A stretch of 64,000 nucleotides of DNA, from assembly GCA_021773975.1 (NCBI GenBank), contig JAJFJN010000038.1, positions 62,001 through 126,000 of the forward strand, given 5' to 3'. Source of the DNA: Gammaproteobacteria bacterium (GTDB lineage Bacteria > Pseudomonadota > Gammaproteobacteria > Chromatiales > Chromatiaceae). The notes beneath the pieces are model-generated. The model was not told the origin of the DNA. It ran no database searches and was given only the letters and a program-made list of their open reading frames with translations. The position numbers and the translations under genes were made by a program. How positions within the stretch are numbered: position 1 is the stretch's first letter; each line of letters begins with the position of its first letter. Below, piece by piece: positions 4,363-34,364 of this stretch.

Positions 4363-5769
4363 CTATTTGCTACCCACCACCGTATTGCCTTTGAGTCCGA
4401 TTGGAAACTGCTCCAAATAGGCATTGGGGGCGGTGCCATCGTAGGTAATACCATCGATGAACTCACTCTGAGGTGGTTTAAAGCCGCTCTCTTTATCCAG
4501 ATCAGGAAAGTCTGAAGCCTGGGCGTGACCCTCAGCGATAAGCGCTTTGGCTGCCTGGGCATAGATATCCGGACGGTAAACCCTCTTGGCCACATCCATG
4601 TACCAGCTATCCGGCTTCTGCTCGGCAATCTGACCCCAGCGGCGCATCTGGGTCAGGTACCAGATGGCATCCGAATAGTAGGGATAGGTAGCGTTGTAGC
4701 GGAAAAAGACGTTGAAGTCCGGCAGCAAACGCTTGTCACCTTTTTCGTACTCAAAGGTACCGGTCATAGAGTTGGCAATCACCTCATAATCCGCGCCCAC
4801 ATACTCGCTCTTGGATATGAGTTTAGTAGCCTCCGCACGATTGCCTAAGCCATCCTTGCCCCCATCCAGCCACTTAGCGGCACGAATCATCGCCTTGACT
4901 ACCCGAATATGGGTATTGGGATATTTGTCAGCCCACCCTTTATCAACACCGAAGACCTTCTCCGGGTTGTCTTTCCAGATCTCGTAGTCGGTGATTACCG
5001 GCACTCCAATCCCTTTGAAGACTGCCTGCTGGTTCCAAGGCTCGCCTACGCAGTAGCCGTAGATGGTGCCTGCATCCATAGTAGCGGGCATTTGTGGTGG
5101 AGGCGTAACGGAGAGCAGGACATCAGCCTTGATCATACCAGTGATGTCACCCGTTTTTGGGGCGTAGTAACCGGGGTGGATGCCGCCAGCAGCCAGCCAG
5201 TAGCGCAGCTCGTAATTGTGGGTGGAGACGGGGAAGACCATGCCCATGTTAAATGGTTTGCCGTCCTGTTTAAATTTATCCACGATGACTTTCAGTGCAT
5301 CCGCCTTGATAGGATGTATCGGCTTGCCGGCCTTATCATGTGGGACATGCTTTTTCATCTGACTCCAAATATCATTAGAGACAGTGATTGCATTGCCGTT
5401 CAGATCCATCGAGAAGGCGGTGATAATATGTGCCTTGGTACCGAAACCGATGGTGGCTCCGAGTGGCTGACCGGCCAGCATGTGGGCTCCGTCCAGTTGA
5501 CCATCGATCACCCGATCCAGCAGCACCTTCCAGTTGGCCTGAGCCTCCAGCGTGACATAGAGTCCCTCATCCTCAAAGTAACCCTTCTCGTAGGCAACCG
5601 CCAGGGGAGCCATGTCGGTTAGTTTAATGAAGCCAAACTTCAAGTCCTCTTTTTCTGGCTCACCAACCTCTGCTACCACTGGACTGGCGCTCAAACTAAG
5701 TCCGATTGCCATGCTCACGGCCAATGCGGCCCGCTTGAAAAATAGTCTGCGTTTTTTGCTTGTACTCAT
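4363..5769 (-). CDS. nrtA: Nitrate-binding protein of ABC transporter (Tat-exported)
   Basis: This 468-residue NrtA/CmpA-family protein captures nitrate or nitrite outside the inner membrane and delivers it to NrtB. The N-terminus [15 protein letters not shown] followed by a hydrophobic run and SPVVA is a twin-arginine signal, so it is probably exported folded. The mature part starts near [21 protein letters not shown], the typical opening of this family, and continues with the blocks [12 protein letters not shown] and YCVGEPWN. CmpA binds bicarbonate and is closely related, so the substrate rests on context: two nitrate MFS carriers and a siroheme reductase nearby. It is the first gene of the nrtA-nrtB-nrtCD operon, with about 700 bases of regulatory-looking DNA upstream. 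Confidence 0.9.
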
Positions 5770-6432: not shown

Positions 6433-6461
6433 AGGGGTGAACAGATGCCCTGCTCACCCCT
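6433..6461 (-). terminator. Hairpin after the MFS nitrate carrier
   Basis: AGGGGTGA and TCACCCCT form a perfect eight-pair stem with a 13-base loop, 15 bases past the stop of the MFS gene. The sequence after the stem on the minus strand is A+U-rich but not a clean U-run, so termination is likely but not certain. Confidence 0.5.
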
Positions 6462-6475
6462 TACATAAGTTGTTG

Positions 6476-7756
6476 CTAAAGCGTATCTACTGCTTTTTCC
6501 TTGGTAGCTGCAGCAGCCTGGAGTTTTCTCGCGTCGCTATCCAGACGGCGTTCACCTGAGTACTGCATCCACATCAATGAGACTAGCGTGACACCAAACA
6601 GCAGCATGAAAGCAGTCGAAGCAACGCCTGTTGCATCCATCAACATGCCGAACATGATAGGCAGGGTAAAACCACCCAATCCGCCTGCCAGCCCTACGAT
6701 ACCCGAGACTGCGCCCATATTATCCTTGTACTCATCTGAGAGGTATTTGAAGACTGAGGCCTTGCCAAAGCCCCAAGCGATACCCACTACGAACAAGAAG
6801 AAGGTAAAGACCCACTCATTAACACCCATATGCATTGAAATATCTTCGCCATTGGTATGGATCAGCATTTCGGACGAGGGTAAAGCCATTACAAGGAGAG
6901 AGACAAGGCTCACCCACATAACCCAGAAGGTGACTTGATGGGCGCCCCACTTATCGGACATCCAACCACCAAGAGCCCTAATCACACCTGAAGGCAGAAC
7001 GAAGATTGCCGCCAACAGCGCAGCGGTCTGAATCTCATGTCCGTAGACACCCATGTAATACTTGGTCATCCAGAGCGACAGTGCAACAAAACCACCAAAC
7101 ACCAGCGAGTAGTATTGGCAATATTTCCAGATTTTTGGGTCATTCAACACTCTTAGCTGATCACCAATACTCACGCTATCTTCAACCAGATGATCAGGAT
7201 CAGAGTAGGTAAAAAACCAGAAGAGAATACAGATGACGGTCATGCCAATAGCATAGATGACAGGCACCATCTCCCAGCCCATCGCGACAACAATGGAGGG
7301 AGCGACAAACTTGGTCAGTGCAGCACCTGCATTACCGGCACCAAAGATGCCCATGGCAAAACCGGCAGTCTCTTTTGAAAACCAGCGTGCGGTGTAGGCA
7401 ATACCAACAGAGAATGAGGCACCCGCACAACCAACAAACAGGCCAAGAACAATAAACTGCCAATATTCAGTCGCCTTGGAGATCAGGAACAGTGGAATGA
7501 TGATAGCGGCCATCAACCAGAAGAAGACTGGGCGACCACCAAATTTATCAGTCATCATTCCAAGCGGCAAACGCAAGATAGAGCCGGTTAAAATAGGTGT
7601 GGCAGCCAAGATACCAAATTGAGTATCTGAAAGGTTCAATCCCGTTTTGATTGGGATACCGATAATAGAAAACATGACCCACACGGCAAAACATGCGGTG
7701 AAGCCTACGGTGTTCATTGTCAACACCGATAGCTGTTTAGTACGTTGGCTTGGCAT
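6476..7756 (-). CDS. NarK/NasA-type nitrate transporter (MFS)
   Basis: This 426-residue inner-membrane carrier of the nitrate/nitrite porter family has about 12 hydrophobic segments. The opening MNTVGFTACFAVWVMFSIIG and the nitrate signature GIFGAGNAGAALTKFVAP are typical of the NarK1/NasA branch, which is thought to import nitrate with protons. The segment SILRLPLGMMTDKFGGRPVF contains the substrate-binding arginine and the MFS loop after helix 2. It differs from the partial NarK at the left edge, which belongs to the longer-N-terminus NarK branch. It stands alone between two long non-coding regions. Whether it serves assimilation or respiration is not shown by the sequence. Confidence 0.88.
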   Translation of the reverse strand: MPSQRTKQLSVLTMNTVGFTACFAVWVMFSIIGIPIKTGLNLSDTQFGILAATPILTGSILRLPLGMMTDKFGGRPVFFWLMAAIIIPLFLISKATEYWQFIVLGLFVGCAGASFSVGIAYTARWFSKETAGFAMGIFGAGNAGAALTKFVAPSIVVAMGWEMVPVIYAIGMTVICILFWFFTYSDPDHLVEDSVSIGDQLRVLNDPKIWKYCQYYSLVFGGFVALSLWMTKYYMGVYGHEIQTAALLAAIFVLPSGVIRALGGWMSDKWGAHQVTFWVMWVSLVSLLVMALPSSEMLIHTNGEDISMHMGVNEWVFTFFLFVVGIAWGFGKASVFKYLSDEYKDNMGAVSGIVGLAGGLGGFTLPIMFGMLMDATGVASTAFMLLFGVTLVSLMWMQYSGERRLDSDARKLQAAAATKEKAVDTL

Positions 7757-29368: not shown

Positions 29369-29761
29369 ATGCCCATGATTACCCTAAATCGATCCGGCAT
29401 CATCGCATGCCGTTTTCTGCTATTTCTGGCATTGGTTGTCACAATCTATGCCACAACAGCCGAGATAACCCATTCTGCAGCCACTGATGTAAATGACAAG
29501 TTTGCTCACTTTGCCAGCTTCTTTATTTTAAGCATGCTGGCAGATCTCTCTTTTCCAAAAAAAGATTTTAACTGGTCGATATGGGCTCCACTCATAGCCT
29601 ATGGGCTACTCATAGAGATCATCCAATACCACATCCCATACCGCTCATTCTCACTACTTGATTGGGTTGCCGATAGCGGTGGCATAATCATCTATGGGCT
29701 ATTAATCCAACTCAAACTTCATATAGTTAAACCCAGCCTGGAGAACTCTTGTACAAAATAA
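29369..29761 (+). CDS. VanZ-like membrane protein
   Basis: The 130-residue protein has about four membrane segments. The pattern DKFAHFASFFILSMLADL, then IEIIQYHIPYRSFSLLDWVADSGG, matches the VanZ-like family: a conserved lysine-x2-H pair, an E-x2-Q pair and a D-x3-D/N-x-G motif. The family takes its name from a teicoplanin-resistance protein, but most members have no known function. It is probably the last gene of the purine operon, or a separate passenger. Confidence 0.75.
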   Translation: MPMITLNRSGIIACRFLLFLALVVTIYATTAEITHSAATDVNDKFAHFASFFILSMLADLSFPKKDFNWSIWAPLIAYGLLIEIIQYHIPYRSFSLLDWVADSGGIIIYGLLIQLKLHIVKPSLENSCTK

Positions 29762-29840
29762 AAGATAGGCAATTAATTCACACATACGCCTATTCATTTA
29801 TACAGATAGCATCGGGAAAATAATTTGCATTGTGCTAAAT

Positions 29841-29869
29841 CCTGTCACGCACTGCTGTCAGGTTTTTTT
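29841..29869 (+). terminator. Possible terminator after the VanZ-like gene
   Basis: CCTG and CAGG arms with further interrupted pairing are followed by seven T residues. A competing stem, GCACTG with CAGTGC, spans the T-run. The stem is weak, so this is tentative. Confidence 0.4.
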
Positions 29870-30103
29870 ACAGTGCTGCACAAAACAAAAAACAAGTATA
29901 ACTTATTGTTTTTAGTCAAAAATATCTACAACACTCCAACGATTAACACATACATTTCCTAATTAAACTGTCAATTTTTTATACAACACAAGGGTAAGTG
30001 CCAACTAACACCAGCAGCGCAAATCTTATTAAATCAAGCAGATAAACATCGCGGTACACATCTTGCTAGTTTCTTAGAATCATTTACACTCTATATAGAT
30101 TCG

Positions 30104-30124
30104 CCCCTGTGATAATCGCAGGGG
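30104..30124 (+). promoter_or_regulatory. Stable hairpin in the leader of the Tat-protein gene
   Basis: CCCCTGTGA and TCGCAGGGG pair through nine positions, including one G-T wobble, around a three-base loop. It is 36 bases before the preferred ATG and is followed by TACTTTATAATTGTTATT. It may be a weak attenuator or an mRNA-stabilising structure for the cassette. Confidence 0.5.
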
Positions 30125-30160
30125 TACTTTATAATTGTTATTCGGATGCAGAGAAGACCT

Positions 30161-30961
30161 ATGACCACGCAAGGAACACAGCCACCATCATCTGATCAGA
30201 AAAGCAGCGCTTCAGATAACGCTTCTTCATCTGCTAAAGAGAAAGGCGTTCATGCTTCTCGCCGGAAGCTGATAACTGGGCTAGCTGCAACTCCAGTCAT
30301 CATGACCCTTGCAAGCAGGCCTGCGCTAGCACGCAATTTTTGCTCTATCTCTGGTTGGGGTTCAGTTCACCCTTCTGGGCGTCCTGAGGGCCATACATGC
30401 GAGGGGAGATCACCTGGTTACTGGAAAACATACTGGTCTAGCACTACTCCAGATGACTGGGGGAAAGGTGGTTTTAATCCGGGGCCACTCAACCCTCTTA
30501 ACGTGAGCAACCAGTGGGATCATGATTATTCTGTGCCCACCATCGCTGAGCTTAATGCTGCCGTTGCTGATCCTAATAACCCATTCAGCTCCACCGAAAA
30601 ACAGACTTATATTACTGCTATAGGCCAAGCAGCTACTCTGGATACATTAATGGGCACAACCCCTGGAACATGGTCGCCACCACTCACATCTGCTCACGCT
30701 GGCACGCTGCCTATCGCATACCCTACAGTAATGCAGATTTTCCACGACAATGACTACAAACAAGGTTTATCACCAGGAAATGCAGCATTTCACTATGCGG
30801 CAGCCCTACTTAATGCTGCCGCATGGGGAGAGAGTTTTGGCTATACACCTACACAGATGCGCACTCTTATTACAGACAAGCATGGAACAGCTGGATTTGT
30901 AGAAAGCTTAAACTGGCTGCATCATCATGGCTATGACAGTGAAAATCCTAACGATCCATAA
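30161..30961 (+). CDS. Tat-exported protein with GYWK motif, likely substrate of the downstream cassette
   Basis: The protein has no family I can name with confidence. About 266 residues, it opens with a Ser/Ala-rich hydrophilic stretch, then a twin-arginine signal, SRRKLITGLAATPVIM to RPALA. The mature part starts at RNFCS and holds two cysteines about 20 residues apart (NFC and HTC). Next comes GRSPGYWKTYW, resembling the C-x-QGYWK-type motifs of secreted exosortase-associated proteins. The rest is rich in Asn, Pro, Trp and His, without membrane segments. The ATG at 30161 was preferred because AGAGAAG precedes it; an ATG five codons upstream has no ribosome site. Its stop overlaps the PqqD-like start by one base, so it is likely the target or partner of those enzymes. 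Confidence 0.7.
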   Translation: MTTQGTQPPSSDQKSSASDNASSSAKEKGVHASRRKLITGLAATPVIMTLASRPALARNFCSISGWGSVHPSGRPEGHTCEGRSPGYWKTYWSSTTPDDWGKGGFNPGPLNPLNVSNQWDHDYSVPTIAELNAAVADPNNPFSSTEKQTYITAIGQAATLDTLMGTTPGTWSPPLTSAHAGTLPIAYPTVMQIFHDNDYKQGLSPGNAAFHYAAALLNAAAWGESFGYTPTQMRTLITDKHGTAGFVESLNWLHHHGYDSENPNDP

Positions 30962-31239
30962 TGCCATCCTGGCAGGTAACACCAGAGAGCCAATTTATTT
31001 GGCATAGCTGGAACAATGAGCATCTGCTCTATAACAATGCATCAGGATCCACCCATTTGCTTGGAGAGGCGGAGGCGGTGCTGCTTCAATCTTTACAAAA
31101 AGCCCCTCAAACAATACCTCAGTTAGAAAAAGGCCTCAGCGAGCTATTTGAGGCTGTTCCATCTGAAGAAGCAACAAAGTGGCTTCAAAATACTCTTTTT
31201 CAATTTAAGAGCCTCGGCTTAGCGACAATAGAGAACTAA
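30961..31239 (+). CDS. PqqD-like peptide chaperone (HPr-rel-A system type)
   Basis: The 92-residue protein fits the PqqD-like fold: a short beta part around FIWHSWNNEHLLYNNASGSTHLL, then helices including GEAEAVLLQSLQKAP and a C-terminal helix ending SLGLATIEN. PqqD-type domains bind leader segments of peptides and present them to modifying enzymes. In the HPr-rel-A system, such a small protein accompanies an HPr-kinase-related ATPase, as here. Start and stop each overlap a neighbour by one base. Identity rests on size, pattern and context more than on strong motifs. Confidence 0.65.
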   Translation: MPSWQVTPESQFIWHSWNNEHLLYNNASGSTHLLGEAEAVLLQSLQKAPQTIPQLEKGLSELFEAVPSEEATKWLQNTLFQFKSLGLATIEN

Positions 31240-32150
31240 TGAGACTGGGTGAGCTAGATGCTTCAATATTGAAGAGGCAATTAAGGACTGAAGGTATTTC
31301 CCTCCAGACTGGCCCCTTCATTACCCAGATTTCAACACAAGCACCTGATTTAATAGAAAGCTTACATACACTGTATAGTGATGCCTTAATCTGTGAATAT
31401 GCTGAATTTTCAGATTTCCATATTTCTGTTGATCGACCACCAGGGCTAAGACGCTGGCTTCAGCCTCAGATCGATTTTTACTTTGATGGCACAGCACCCT
31501 TCAACCCATTTCCAGCAGGACAGGCATTACCTTTATTTGAATGGGGCCTAAACTGGGCCATTTCACAGCATGCCCACCAATATCTCATTATTCATGCTGC
31601 AGTTATTGAAAAAGAGGGGCATGCCGTCATCATGCCCGCCCCACCAGGCTCAGGAAAAAGCACCCTCTGTGCTGGCTTGGTCCATAACGGCTGGCGCTTG
31701 CTATCTGATGAGCTCACACTGCTGGATCTGCACAATGGCCAGGCCACTCCATTGGCCAGACCTGTAGGCTTGAAGAATGATTCTATTGAGGTAATACGGC
31801 GCTTTGCACCTCAGGCCACACTCAGCCCCATAACAGTGGACACCCATAAGGGGGCTGTTGCCCTTATGAAACCACCTGCTGACAGTGTTGAAAAATCAGA
31901 TCAACCGGCACAGCCGGCATGGGTGATTTTTCCAAAATATATTGCTGGAGCAGCAGCTACCCTAACACCTCACTCCAAGGCTAAAGCCTGTATCGCACTG
32001 GGAGACAACGCCTTTAATTACAGCATACATGGCGTGAATGGCTTTAATCTATTAACCAACATGCTGGATCAGTGTGACTGCTACGATTTTAGTTACAGCA
32101 ACCTGTCAGATGCCGTGAGCATTTTCTCACAATTAGAGCCGCCAGCCTGA
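31239..32150 (+). CDS. HPr-kinase-related ATPase (HprK-related kinase A type)
   Basis: The 303-residue protein has a C-terminal P-loop domain related to HPr(Ser) kinase/phosphorylase. The Walker A motif is APPGSGKST (residues 134-142), followed by LLSDELTLLDL in the place where HprK has its acidic pair. The N-terminal 110 residues are not HprK-like. Related kinases phosphorylate lasso peptides or act in exosortase-linked systems; the target here is unknown, with the Tat protein the nearest candidate. Its ATG overlaps the stop of the PqqD-like gene by one base. Confidence 0.75.
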   Translation: MRLGELDASILKRQLRTEGISLQTGPFITQISTQAPDLIESLHTLYSDALICEYAEFSDFHISVDRPPGLRRWLQPQIDFYFDGTAPFNPFPAGQALPLFEWGLNWAISQHAHQYLIIHAAVIEKEGHAVIMPAPPGSGKSTLCAGLVHNGWRLLSDELTLLDLHNGQATPLARPVGLKNDSIEVIRRFAPQATLSPITVDTHKGAVALMKPPADSVEKSDQPAQPAWVIFPKYIAGAAATLTPHSKAKACIALGDNAFNYSIHGVNGFNLLTNMLDQCDCYDFSYSNLSDAVSIFSQLEPPA

Positions 32151-32189
32151 TAAAGTAAGCTTTTTTGGCACTTTAATATCTACCACCAA

Positions 32190-33278
32190 ATGAGCAGTCC
32201 TCCTCCCATATTGCTGCATGCACTTAACCACCCCGAGAACATGCTCTCTCTTTCGCTCTCCTCATGGGATTTGCTCATTCGACAAGCACGAGGCGCCGGC
32301 TTGCTCACAAATCTACATGATGCCATTGATCGGTTAGGTGAGCTGAACTCAATACCAGAGCGCCCACGTAATCACCTGGAATCAGCCCGCACGTTGACAG
32401 ACAAACATCAGCGCGATGTTCACTGGGAAGTCAAATGTATTCTCGAAGCCTTAAAGGCTCTGAAGCAACCCATCACACTTCTTAAAGGCTCTGCCTACCT
32501 GATAGCTGACTTGCCGGTGGCTAAAGGGAGGCTATTTTCTGACATTGATATTCTGGTTCCAAAAGAGGCGATTGAGGAAGTCGAGCAAACACTACGGCTG
32601 AAAGGCTGGATGCTCACCACCCACGATGCCTACGATCAACGCTACTACCGCACCTGGATGCATGAACTACCGCCTCTACGCCATGCAACGCGCAATACCA
32701 CTCTGGATGTGCATCACAACATCCTTCCTGAAACAGCCCGGTTGCATCCATCACCAAAGAAGTTGCTACAGGCTGCAATCTCAGTAAATGAGGATAACAG
32801 CCTGTATGTTCTCAGTCCGGCAGATATGGTACTCCATAGCGCCACCCACCTGTTTCATGATGGAGAACTAGAGCATGGTCTGCGTGACCTGGTGGATTTA
32901 GATGGGTTACTGCGCCATTTTGGCAACCAGGAGGCCTTTTGGTCCGAATTGGTTGAACGCGCAAAAGAGATGGATCTCACCCGGCCGCTCTATTATGCAT
33001 TGCGCTATAGTAAAAAATTCTTGAATACGCCTATTCCAGAAGAAACCATAATTGCATCACAAGCCGGCAGCCCGCCTGCTTTTATGCCCTATTGGATGGA
33101 TATGCTGTTTCTCCGGGCTTTAGCGCCTGATCATCTCAGTTGTCGTGACTGGCTTTCTGGAACAGCGCGACTACTCCTGTTTATCCGCGCTCATTTTCTA
33201 CGCATGCCCTTGCATCTACTCATACCCCATCTTTTTCATAAGGCCTTTATCTCACCACGCAGCAATGGTGCAACCTGA
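32190..33278 (+). CDS. Uncharacterised nucleotidyltransferase (NTP_transf_5 type)
   Basis: The 362-residue protein has the motif pattern of the uncharacterised nucleotidyltransferase family: TLLKGSAYLIADLP (from about residue 96), then RLFSDIDILVPK (about residues 114-125), whose aspartates should bind metal. Later blocks LDVHHNI and MVLHSATHLFHDGELEHGLRDLVDLDGLL also fit the family. Such proteins often accompany PqqD-like and HPr-kinase-like genes, including lasso peptide clusters. It follows the kinase gene by 39 bases on the same strand. Substrate and nucleotide are unknown. Confidence 0.75.
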   Translation: MSSPPPILLHALNHPENMLSLSLSSWDLLIRQARGAGLLTNLHDAIDRLGELNSIPERPRNHLESARTLTDKHQRDVHWEVKCILEALKALKQPITLLKGSAYLIADLPVAKGRLFSDIDILVPKEAIEEVEQTLRLKGWMLTTHDAYDQRYYRTWMHELPPLRHATRNTTLDVHHNILPETARLHPSPKKLLQAAISVNEDNSLYVLSPADMVLHSATHLFHDGELEHGLRDLVDLDGLLRHFGNQEAFWSELVERAKEMDLTRPLYYALRYSKKFLNTPIPEETIIASQAGSPPAFMPYWMDMLFLRALAPDHLSCRDWLSGTARLLLFIRAHFLRMPLHLLIPHLFHKAFISPRSNGAT

Positions 33279-33301
33279 CGCACGTAGGCATATTTGTACT
33301 C

Positions 33302-34279
33302 TTACAGGCCAGGCAACACTTTATCGGCAATAAGCTTAGCTAACCCCTTTAGCTGAGGACGGTGAAATGCAACCTCGACGATATACCCCAGAGTTCTGGG
33401 GATATCCTTAAGATAGCCTGATTTGCCGTCACGCTGATTTAGGCGGGCGAATATACCCGCCGCCTTAAGATGGCGCTGCACTCCCATTAGGTCAAACCAC
33501 TGTAGAAATTGTTTTTCATGCTTACTCAATAGCACACCACTTTTAACTGCCTGCTTAAAATAGGCCATAGCCCATAACTCAACCTGATCTGTAGGCCATT
33601 GGATGTAGCAATCACGTAGCAGTGAAACCAGGTCGTAAGTTACTGGGCCATTGACTGCATCCTGAAAATCCAAAATGCCAGGGTTAGGCTCAGTCTGCAT
33701 CAGATTACGGGAGTGATAGTCACGGTGAACAGCAACCTGAGGTTGCTCTAAAGCATTATCAGCCAGCAGTTCAAAGATTTGGGTAAGCTGTATGTGGTCA
33801 CTATCTGTAAGGGAGAGCCGCAGATGTTTCTGCAGTAGCCACTCTCGAAATAGCTCCATCTCCTGCATCAGCAGTGCCCGATTATAAAGTGGCAGTGTTT
33901 CTGCTGACACATTACTCTGTAGCTGCACGAGTGAATGCATTGCATCACTGTAGAGCTGGTCTGCATTATCAGAATTAAGAATATCCAGATAAAGTATTGA
34001 GCCAAAATCATCAAGCAGCAAAAAACCCTGTTTTAAATCCTGATGGTGAATTGATGGCACATTGAGTCCAGCAACTCTTAGCTGCTGGGCAATAGCCACA
34101 AAGGGATGACAATCTTCTTTTTCAGGCGGCGCATCCATTGCGATAAAACTTTTATCGTTCAGGCTGATACGGAAATAACGCCGAAAGCTGGCATCGCCCG
34201 AGGCCGGCTCTAATGAAAAGTGGGAAAAGCCAACTTGGTGGGTCAACCATTGTTCTAGCTTTTTTATTCTCTCAGGCAT
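33302..34279 (-). CDS. Aminoglycoside-phosphotransferase-fold kinase, AmgK-like
   Basis: The roughly 325-residue cytoplasmic kinase has a protein-kinase-like fold. The catalytic loop HRDYHSRNLM and metal loop ILDFQDAVNGPVTYDL are clear. The N-terminus MPERIKKLEQWLTHQ and overall length resemble AmgK, the MurNAc/GlcNAc anomeric kinase of the Pseudomonas cell-wall recycling route. In that route murU normally follows amgK; here the next gene on the strand (33302 onward) is absent and the neighbour is convergent. The start at 34279 was preferred because the upstream 19 residues are low-complexity and unlike the family. Another small-molecule kinase activity remains possible. Confidence 0.7.
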   Translation of the reverse strand: MPERIKKLEQWLTHQVGFSHFSLEPASGDASFRRYFRISLNDKSFIAMDAPPEKEDCHPFVAIAQQLRVAGLNVPSIHHQDLKQGFLLLDDFGSILYLDILNSDNADQLYSDAMHSLVQLQSNVSAETLPLYNRALLMQEMELFREWLLQKHLRLSLTDSDHIQLTQIFELLADNALEQPQVAVHRDYHSRNLMQTEPNPGILDFQDAVNGPVTYDLVSLLRDCYIQWPTDQVELWAMAYFKQAVKSGVLLSKHEKQFLQWFDLMGVQRHLKAAGIFARLNQRDGKSGYLKDIPRTLGYIVEVAFHRPQLKGLAKLIADKVLPGL

Positions 34280-34364
34280 AACAGAAAGGCTACAGGAATT
34301 AGATGATGGAAGGCAGGGTGATTTTAACGGCGGCACTTATACCAACTACGTATTACGCAACACC

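Follow-up and report, generated by a model that had tools for sequence, protein, structure and literature searches.

The best-known analogue comes from lasso-peptide clusters. According to two papers, PsmK phosphorylates the C-terminal Ser of the lasso peptide pseudomycoidin in Bacillus pseudomycoides, PsmN, annotated as a nucleotidyltransferase, is required in vivo to add one or two hexoses to the phosphoserine, with direct sugar transfer and prior attachment of a nucleotide both possible, and PqqD-type B1 proteins occur in lasso clusters (PMC8498205, PMC9266682). The second of these papers also describes PadeK, of paeninodin, and ThcoK as HPr-kinase homologues that act on the precursor peptide before folding, require His, Lys and Asp residues and target the C-terminal Ser (PMC9266682). 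Here, we analysed a 64,000-nucleotide stretch of a Chromatiaceae genome (hereafter the window), in which a gene for a protein with a twin-arginine translocation (Tat) leader heads a cassette that continues with genes for a PqqD-like protein, an HPr-kinase-related protein and a nucleotidyltransferase. The Tat-leader protein probably serves as the substrate of the three enzymes and would be modified before its export.

The cassette and its Tat-leader partner gene

The four genes lie on the forward strand in the arrangement given by a preliminary description of the window, whose coordinates, one-base overlaps at the junctions of genes 1/2 and 2/3 and 39-base gap ahead of gene 4 were all borne out by the open reading frames (ORFs). 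Gene 1, the partner gene and proposed substrate, spans 30161..30961; its ORF is open from 30146 (30146-30961, 271 aa, the frame from which residues are numbered here), and translation probably begins at Met6 (30161), whose column is nearly invariant among aligned relatives. Gene 2 (30961..31239, 92 aa) scored 52.1 bits against TIGR04353 (cut-off 35), gene 3 (31239..32150, 303 aa) 399.6 bits against TIGR04352 (cut-off 200), and gene 4 (32190..33278, 362 aa) 204.8 bits against PF14907, NTP_transf_5 (cut-off 31.2), so that the earlier PqqD-like, HPr-kinase-related and nucleotidyltransferase labels hold. NCBIfam names the first two families 'HPr-rel-A system PqqD family peptide chaperone' and 'HprK-related kinase A', and we take a neighbouring PF14907 nucleotidyltransferase to be a defining member of the HPr-rel-A system. 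The window carries all three, with the PF14907 gene adjacent, and these scores identify its enzymes as a set that already bears a name, HPr-rel-A. Gene 3 reached 15.9 bits against the HPr(Ser) kinase/phosphatase family TIGR00679, below its cut-off of 240, and the true HprK of the genome is located elsewhere (338 bits). For gene 1, neither Pfam nor NCBIfam gave a family above cut-off. The HPr-rel-A family names as such give no substrate, whereas the Tat-leader gene that accompanies the set here is a substrate candidate and likely the new element. A TatC gene is present in the genome.

The partner gene accompanies the kinase at nearly all loci. We compiled a first set of 97 kinase loci, of which 17, counting the window locus, belong to the genome that holds the window or to relatives of that genome, and 80, all named, come from one scan of species genomes; two of them (L047, L048), at contig ends, hold kinase fragments under the family cut-off. 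A profile built from relatives of the window protein alone matched an ORF in 91 of the 97 loci, and, once extended with these loci, in 93, one per locus. Of these partners, 87 lie directly upstream on the same strand, five are found past the opposite end of the cassette, at most about 3 kb away, and one, at L123, overlaps the next gene. A kinase above the family cut-off was found in 41 of 369 genomes of the class; four of these were already among the earlier loci, and the other 37 loci, two of which repeat earlier kinases, were added and yielded 36 partners, every one upstream on the same strand. With identical kinases removed, a partner gene is present in 126 of 130 distinct kinase loci (the L037 partner, added by eye, is counted), as is a relative of gene 4 (126/130). 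All but one of the 126 partners fit the leader profile (125/126), and 124 have a readable twin arginine. The loci without a partner are L047 and L159, at contig edges, and L051 and L126.

The same association was seen in reverse. Wide occurrence of the Tat protein apart from the other three genes, which had been named as a check on the original proposal, was not what we found: the profile of alignment A2 (79 rows, comprising the window protein, its homologues and partners of the same, first type, selected by us among usable lengths) matched 39 of the 41 kinase-bearing genomes and 13 of the 328 class genomes lacking the kinase, with a complete partner in none of the latter. The two kinase genomes without a match were G124, which has a partner of a second type (L164), and G291, whose locus L159 reaches a contig end. 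Twelve of the 13 kinase-lacking matches were read as sequence and rejected as partners: the domain lies within other or larger proteins in G113, G132 and G247; G216, G317, G350, G391, G069 and G134 encode short Tat peptides; the Tat signal precedes other proteins in G159 and G195; and the matching protein of G114 has no Tat signal. The thirteenth, G117, known from match coordinates only (no ORF match in L208), was rejected since its match begins past the leader in a 1352-residue frame. Taken together, these results strongly support, from gene content and sequence, the assignment of the Tat-leader protein as the target.

Searching the class genomes yielded one partner for the window's genome, which also shows a further weak HprK-like P-loop match of 30.3 bits in a 380-aa frame (L218, G000:C41, ~6461-6625). 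In genome G328, a second partner with the leader and a CTLSGMMSGN motif (L209, 1405-2601, reverse strand) lies on a different contig from its cassette, and the enzymes may thus act in trans. A Thiobacillus metagenome-assembled genome (L095) carries two kinase/transferase sets within one stretch. A cassette on a Vibrio alfacsensis plasmid (L213, 3896-6963) includes a partner with the sequence CSITSCMSGNAS and an unannotated 84-aa ORF (4733-4987) in the PqqD position.

Leader, serine motif and partner types

Gene 1 has the sequence features of a Tat substrate, namely a twin arginine, a hydrophobic stretch and A-x-A, and export is predicted. The leader runs from R39-R40 to A62 (RRKLITGLAATPVIMTLASRPALA; 30260..30331, forward strand), with cleavage predicted after A62 and the twin arginine kept in 89 of 91 aligned rows. 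Just past the signal lies the proposed acceptor motif, C66-S67-I68-S69-G-W-G-S73-V-H-P-S77 (30341..30376, forward strand), put forward on its conservation: S69 and S73 are the only invariant columns of A2, in which Met6, Arg39, Arg40, Cys66, Trp105 and Asn223 reach 90%, although one row, L115, shows a different serine spacing by pattern. The wider 91-row alignment gives softer figures (S73 87/91, S69 84/91, C66 81/91, S77 77/91). The motif of the first type approximates C-x-x-S-[GA]-x-x-S-[GAV]-N-x-S, or in its stricter form C-x-x-S-G-x-x-S-G-N-x-S, and 107 of 112 first-type partners have two serines so spaced at the expected position. Leader conservation extends through the c-region (TLASRPVLA), which we judged unusual for a Tat signal in an uncontrolled comparison.

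The mature helical domain has two landmarks, GYWK (30416..30427), identified from the alignment of relatives, and an AALLNA helix (30800..30817), located with a structure model and with N223 kept in 81/91 rows, both on the forward strand. GYWK, which the preliminary description had singled out, is present, but the Tat leader together with C66-x-x-S69-G-x-x-S73 is more conserved. It was rejected as the key feature, given that the GYWK/AALLNA domain is also found in leaderless proteins (L206, L207, L210, L211, L212), all five of which lack the CxxS[GAN]xxS motif; in these mostly large proteins the domain sits at or near the C-terminus. No Pfam model covers the domain among the 79 partner rows scanned. 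The C-terminus of gene 1, HHHGYDSENPNDP, has by eye no hydrophobic stretch of the PEP-CTERM type; exosortases were not searched for.

A second partner type carries a leader of the same, twin-arginine kind, as judged from leader profiles, on a different body (n=14; L035, L037, L038, L043, L044, L048, L140, L142, L153, L160, L162, L164, L165, L166). A [TAN]-S-[FLIA] motif, a pattern fitted after inspection of those 14 sequences, occurs within the last 45 residues in 14/14, with a Cys three before the Ser in eight. The L153 partner is 74 residues long, and its portion past the leader is reduced to 12 residues, GSACISCNASLI. In a tree of 128 kinases, from which two short ones of the 130 were left out, 13 second-type rows and L126 form one branch with a support of 99; the tree was made by a quick method, and 55 of its 125 inner branches are weak. 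Kinase lineage thus corresponds to the serine position and the partner body. In partial Mantel tests (119 of the 130 loci, after fragments, missing genes and contig edges were dropped; 300 permutations), the mature part tracked the kinase (partial r 0.17, 0/300 permutations as high).

The enzymes themselves keep residues that are predicted to be catalytic, H119, K140, D157, E158 and K204 of gene 3 in 128/128 aligned kinases and K99, G100, R114, D118, D120 and D173 of gene 4 in 122/122 aligned transferases. The structure model of gene 4 (pLDDT 95) shows three catalytic-type Asp, and its fold matches, MenT1 (17% identity) and ANT(2'')-Ia (14%), predict a polymerase-beta-type fold over residues 75-277 of 362; compared with both, gene 4 has further helical parts at both ends. 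The acceptor of MenT1 is tRNA, and that of ANT(2'')-Ia, going by the entry titles, is an aminoglycoside.

The proposed modification and its alternatives

We consider it fairly probable that the Tat-leader protein is held, phosphorylated, capped and exported in this order. The PqqD-like protein would hold the signal-peptide region of the partner, the HprK-like kinase would place a phosphate on a conserved serine just past the signal, predicted to be Ser69 or else Ser73, the nucleotidyltransferase would cap the phosphate with a nucleotide or a sugar, and the Tat machinery would export the protein after capping. By analogy with the lasso kinases, serine phosphorylation followed by capping of the phosphate before Tat export is the likely chemistry; that the reaction occurs, and its site, order and chemistry, we infer. 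Modification is placed before export because ATP and nucleoside triphosphates (NTPs) are cytoplasmic and the three enzymes, by eye, have no signal peptide.

Several observations weigh against this proposal. About 8 of the 39 matches in kinase genomes were weak, leader-only or nearly so, these being second-type partners, whose serine pattern, as said, was drawn from the sequences it describes. Five of the 112 first-type partners (L040, L088, L060, L115, L149) lack the expected serine spacing; the L040 partner is cut by the contig start, and the called ORF at L088 (6038-6637) begins within the leader, without the twin arginine, and reads CTISGLQS. L126 and L051, the latter also without a PqqD match, yielded no partner. 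The lasso kinases PadeK and ThcoK have a His-Lys-Asp-Asp set, while the window-type kinases read His-Lys-Asp-Glu (128/128), with Glu in place of the second Asp if the motifs line up, the last position being aligned by our own reading. PadeK and PsmK target a C-terminal Ser, whereas the serine is internal here, and invariant serines next to a signal could be structural. Moreover, the Mantel tests agree with the proposed order in part: the mature part tracked the kinase, but the leader tracked gene 4 (partial r 0.41, 0/300 permutations as high), PqqD weakly (0.11, 2/300) and the kinase not at all (-0.10). Therefore, the transferase, and not PqqD alone, may read the leader, which runs counter to the simplest picture of the chaperone.

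The alternative that survives best, in our view an unlikely one, is that the motif is modified in another way, for example by direct nucleotidylation of the serine by gene 4, the HprK-like protein being a phosphatase or an ATPase. In its favour, gene 4 has the predicted nucleotidyl-transfer fold with its three Asp kept, HPr kinases also act as phosphatases, and a Glu replaces one catalytic Asp of the kinase. Yet the kinase keeps its His, its Lys and one Asp in 128/128, and HprK relatives of lasso clusters phosphorylate Ser, with the sugar of pseudomycoidin sitting on that phosphate (PMC8498205, PMC9266682).

It is quite improbable that the neighbours are independent, with the kinase modifying another protein and the Tat protein merely exported from the same operon. 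Genes that share an operon need not act on one another, and the mature domain also occurs in larger leaderless proteins. What accompanies the cassette, however, is the leader and the motif rather than the domain: the body is swapped in the second type and almost lost in the 12-residue case, while the leader and the serine motif are retained, and the kinase branch corresponds to the partner type. Finally, the N-terminal extension before the twin arginine, which is about 35 residues long and Ser/Thr-rich in the window protein, is very improbable as the modified part, being poorly conserved among relatives and presumably removed along with the signal peptide; the Mantel tests tie its distances to no enzyme of the cassette (partial r 0.03, 0.04 and -0.00, with 58, 54 and 162 of 300 permutations as high). 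Since the extension tracks no enzyme and the invariant residues lie past the signal peptide, it is not the favoured target, and of the two targets proposed earlier for the three enzymes, the Tat protein is kept (126/130 loci and the reverse test) and its extension is not.

Neighbourhood, possible sister loci and comparison with known systems

Between 29.36 and 34.36 kb the window holds, besides the cassette, only a VanZ-like gene upstream (29369-29761, forward strand) and an AmgK-like gene downstream (33302-34336, reverse strand). Both were rejected as parts of the system, given that they recur near few of the first 97 loci (L032/L053, L033/L058, L035, L041, L042, L088; L131-L167 lie outside this count). 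A hairpin with a T-rich stretch (30103..30125, forward strand), recognised by consensus match only, lies between the VanZ-like gene and the cassette, about 20-35 bases ahead of the cassette start, and may be a leader element or may terminate the upstream gene; terminator-like sites in 29700-33500 numbered 7, against a mean of 3.9 in shuffles.

Six class genomes without the TIGR04352 kinase encode short Tat peptides of 57-87 residues, several in tandem, that read SRRxFLKK...AYVAPAILTL...A-x-x-GS and share, by eye, a Gly-Ser directly past the signal. In five of the six, they adjoin a gene for an HprK-like kinase that, at 49-85 bits, falls short of the TIGR04352 cut-off; a PqqD-like gene is also present in G216, G317 and G391 (checked with Pfam PF05402 for two), and a PF14907 gene in G391. 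By stretch, the kinase is found at L229, L231, L232, L234 and L236, with the PqqD-like gene at L229, L231 and L236 and the PF14907 gene at L236, and no kinase match at L230, L233 and L235. One short Tat peptide, from L231, used as a query retrieved seven relatives. These peptides are possibly Tat-exported ribosomal peptides of a sister system. On a Methylobacterium tardum plasmid (L216, 4109-5564), an ORF with a Tat-like start (RRSALKAMGAVAAYTAPVLL...) lies directly upstream of a PqqD-HprK fusion.

It is a tentative possibility that PqqD acts with an HprK-like kinase and a polymerase-beta-type transferase as a general machine for serine phospho-capping before export, with Tat leaders as recognition tags. 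Such a machine would cap one invariant Ser on proteins with a domain of 200 residues, on a 12-residue peptide and on the sister tandem Tat peptides of 57-87 residues, and its products would be ribosomal peptides exported by Tat and bacterial surface phospho(glyco)proteins of a new kind. The narrower assignment would give a named enzyme set lacking a known target its likely target, and the set becomes testable through its co-conserved partner, in which two serines are invariant. If the proposed modification is true, peptide-style modification by PqqD, kinase and transferase shifts from small lasso peptides to exported proteins, a reason for the use of the Tat route is given, and a new protein modification is possible in many environmental bacteria. 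In one scan of species genomes, relatives of the kinase, irrespective of the TIGR04352 cut-off, were encoded on at least 535 stretches.

In the open-access literature, subscription papers lying outside the search, we found no published target for the HPr-rel-A set under its family names or accessions. By title, PqqD or peptide precursors combined with Tat gave nothing or unrelated papers only, while PqqD, HPr kinase and nucleotidyltransferase together led to lasso-peptide papers. A Deinococcus protein annotated as lasso B2 gives a weak match to gene 4 over 45% of its length (E 1e-3). This protein, with a transferase-like N-terminal part, is encoded on a Deinococcus psychrotolerans plasmid (L214, 1-6164) that also carries a PqqD gene, a P-loop gene HprK-like by eye, an extracellular nuclease gene and a 63-aa ORF that resembles a lasso precursor by eye. 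The weak match to a B2 protein that shares a stretch with PqqD and the P-loop gene lends support to a link between gene 4 and lasso clusters. The NTP_transf_5 type had been said to have no known activity; PsmN, a nucleotidyltransferase homologue by annotation, may offer a lead.

Compared with pseudomycoidin, the cassette shares a PqqD-type protein, an HprK-like kinase and a nucleotidyltransferase homologue. A lasso precursor, a B2 protease and a C cyclase are all absent from its immediate neighbours at 29.36-34.36 kb, the region to which this comparison was confined. Whereas the pseudomycoidin system modifies the C-terminal Ser of a short lasso precursor and includes the B2 protease and C cyclase, the partner here is a protein predicted to be exported by Tat, and its Ser motif is internal. 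By this analogy, the system is a variant of the lasso-type kinase/transferase pair that has moved onto Tat-exported proteins.

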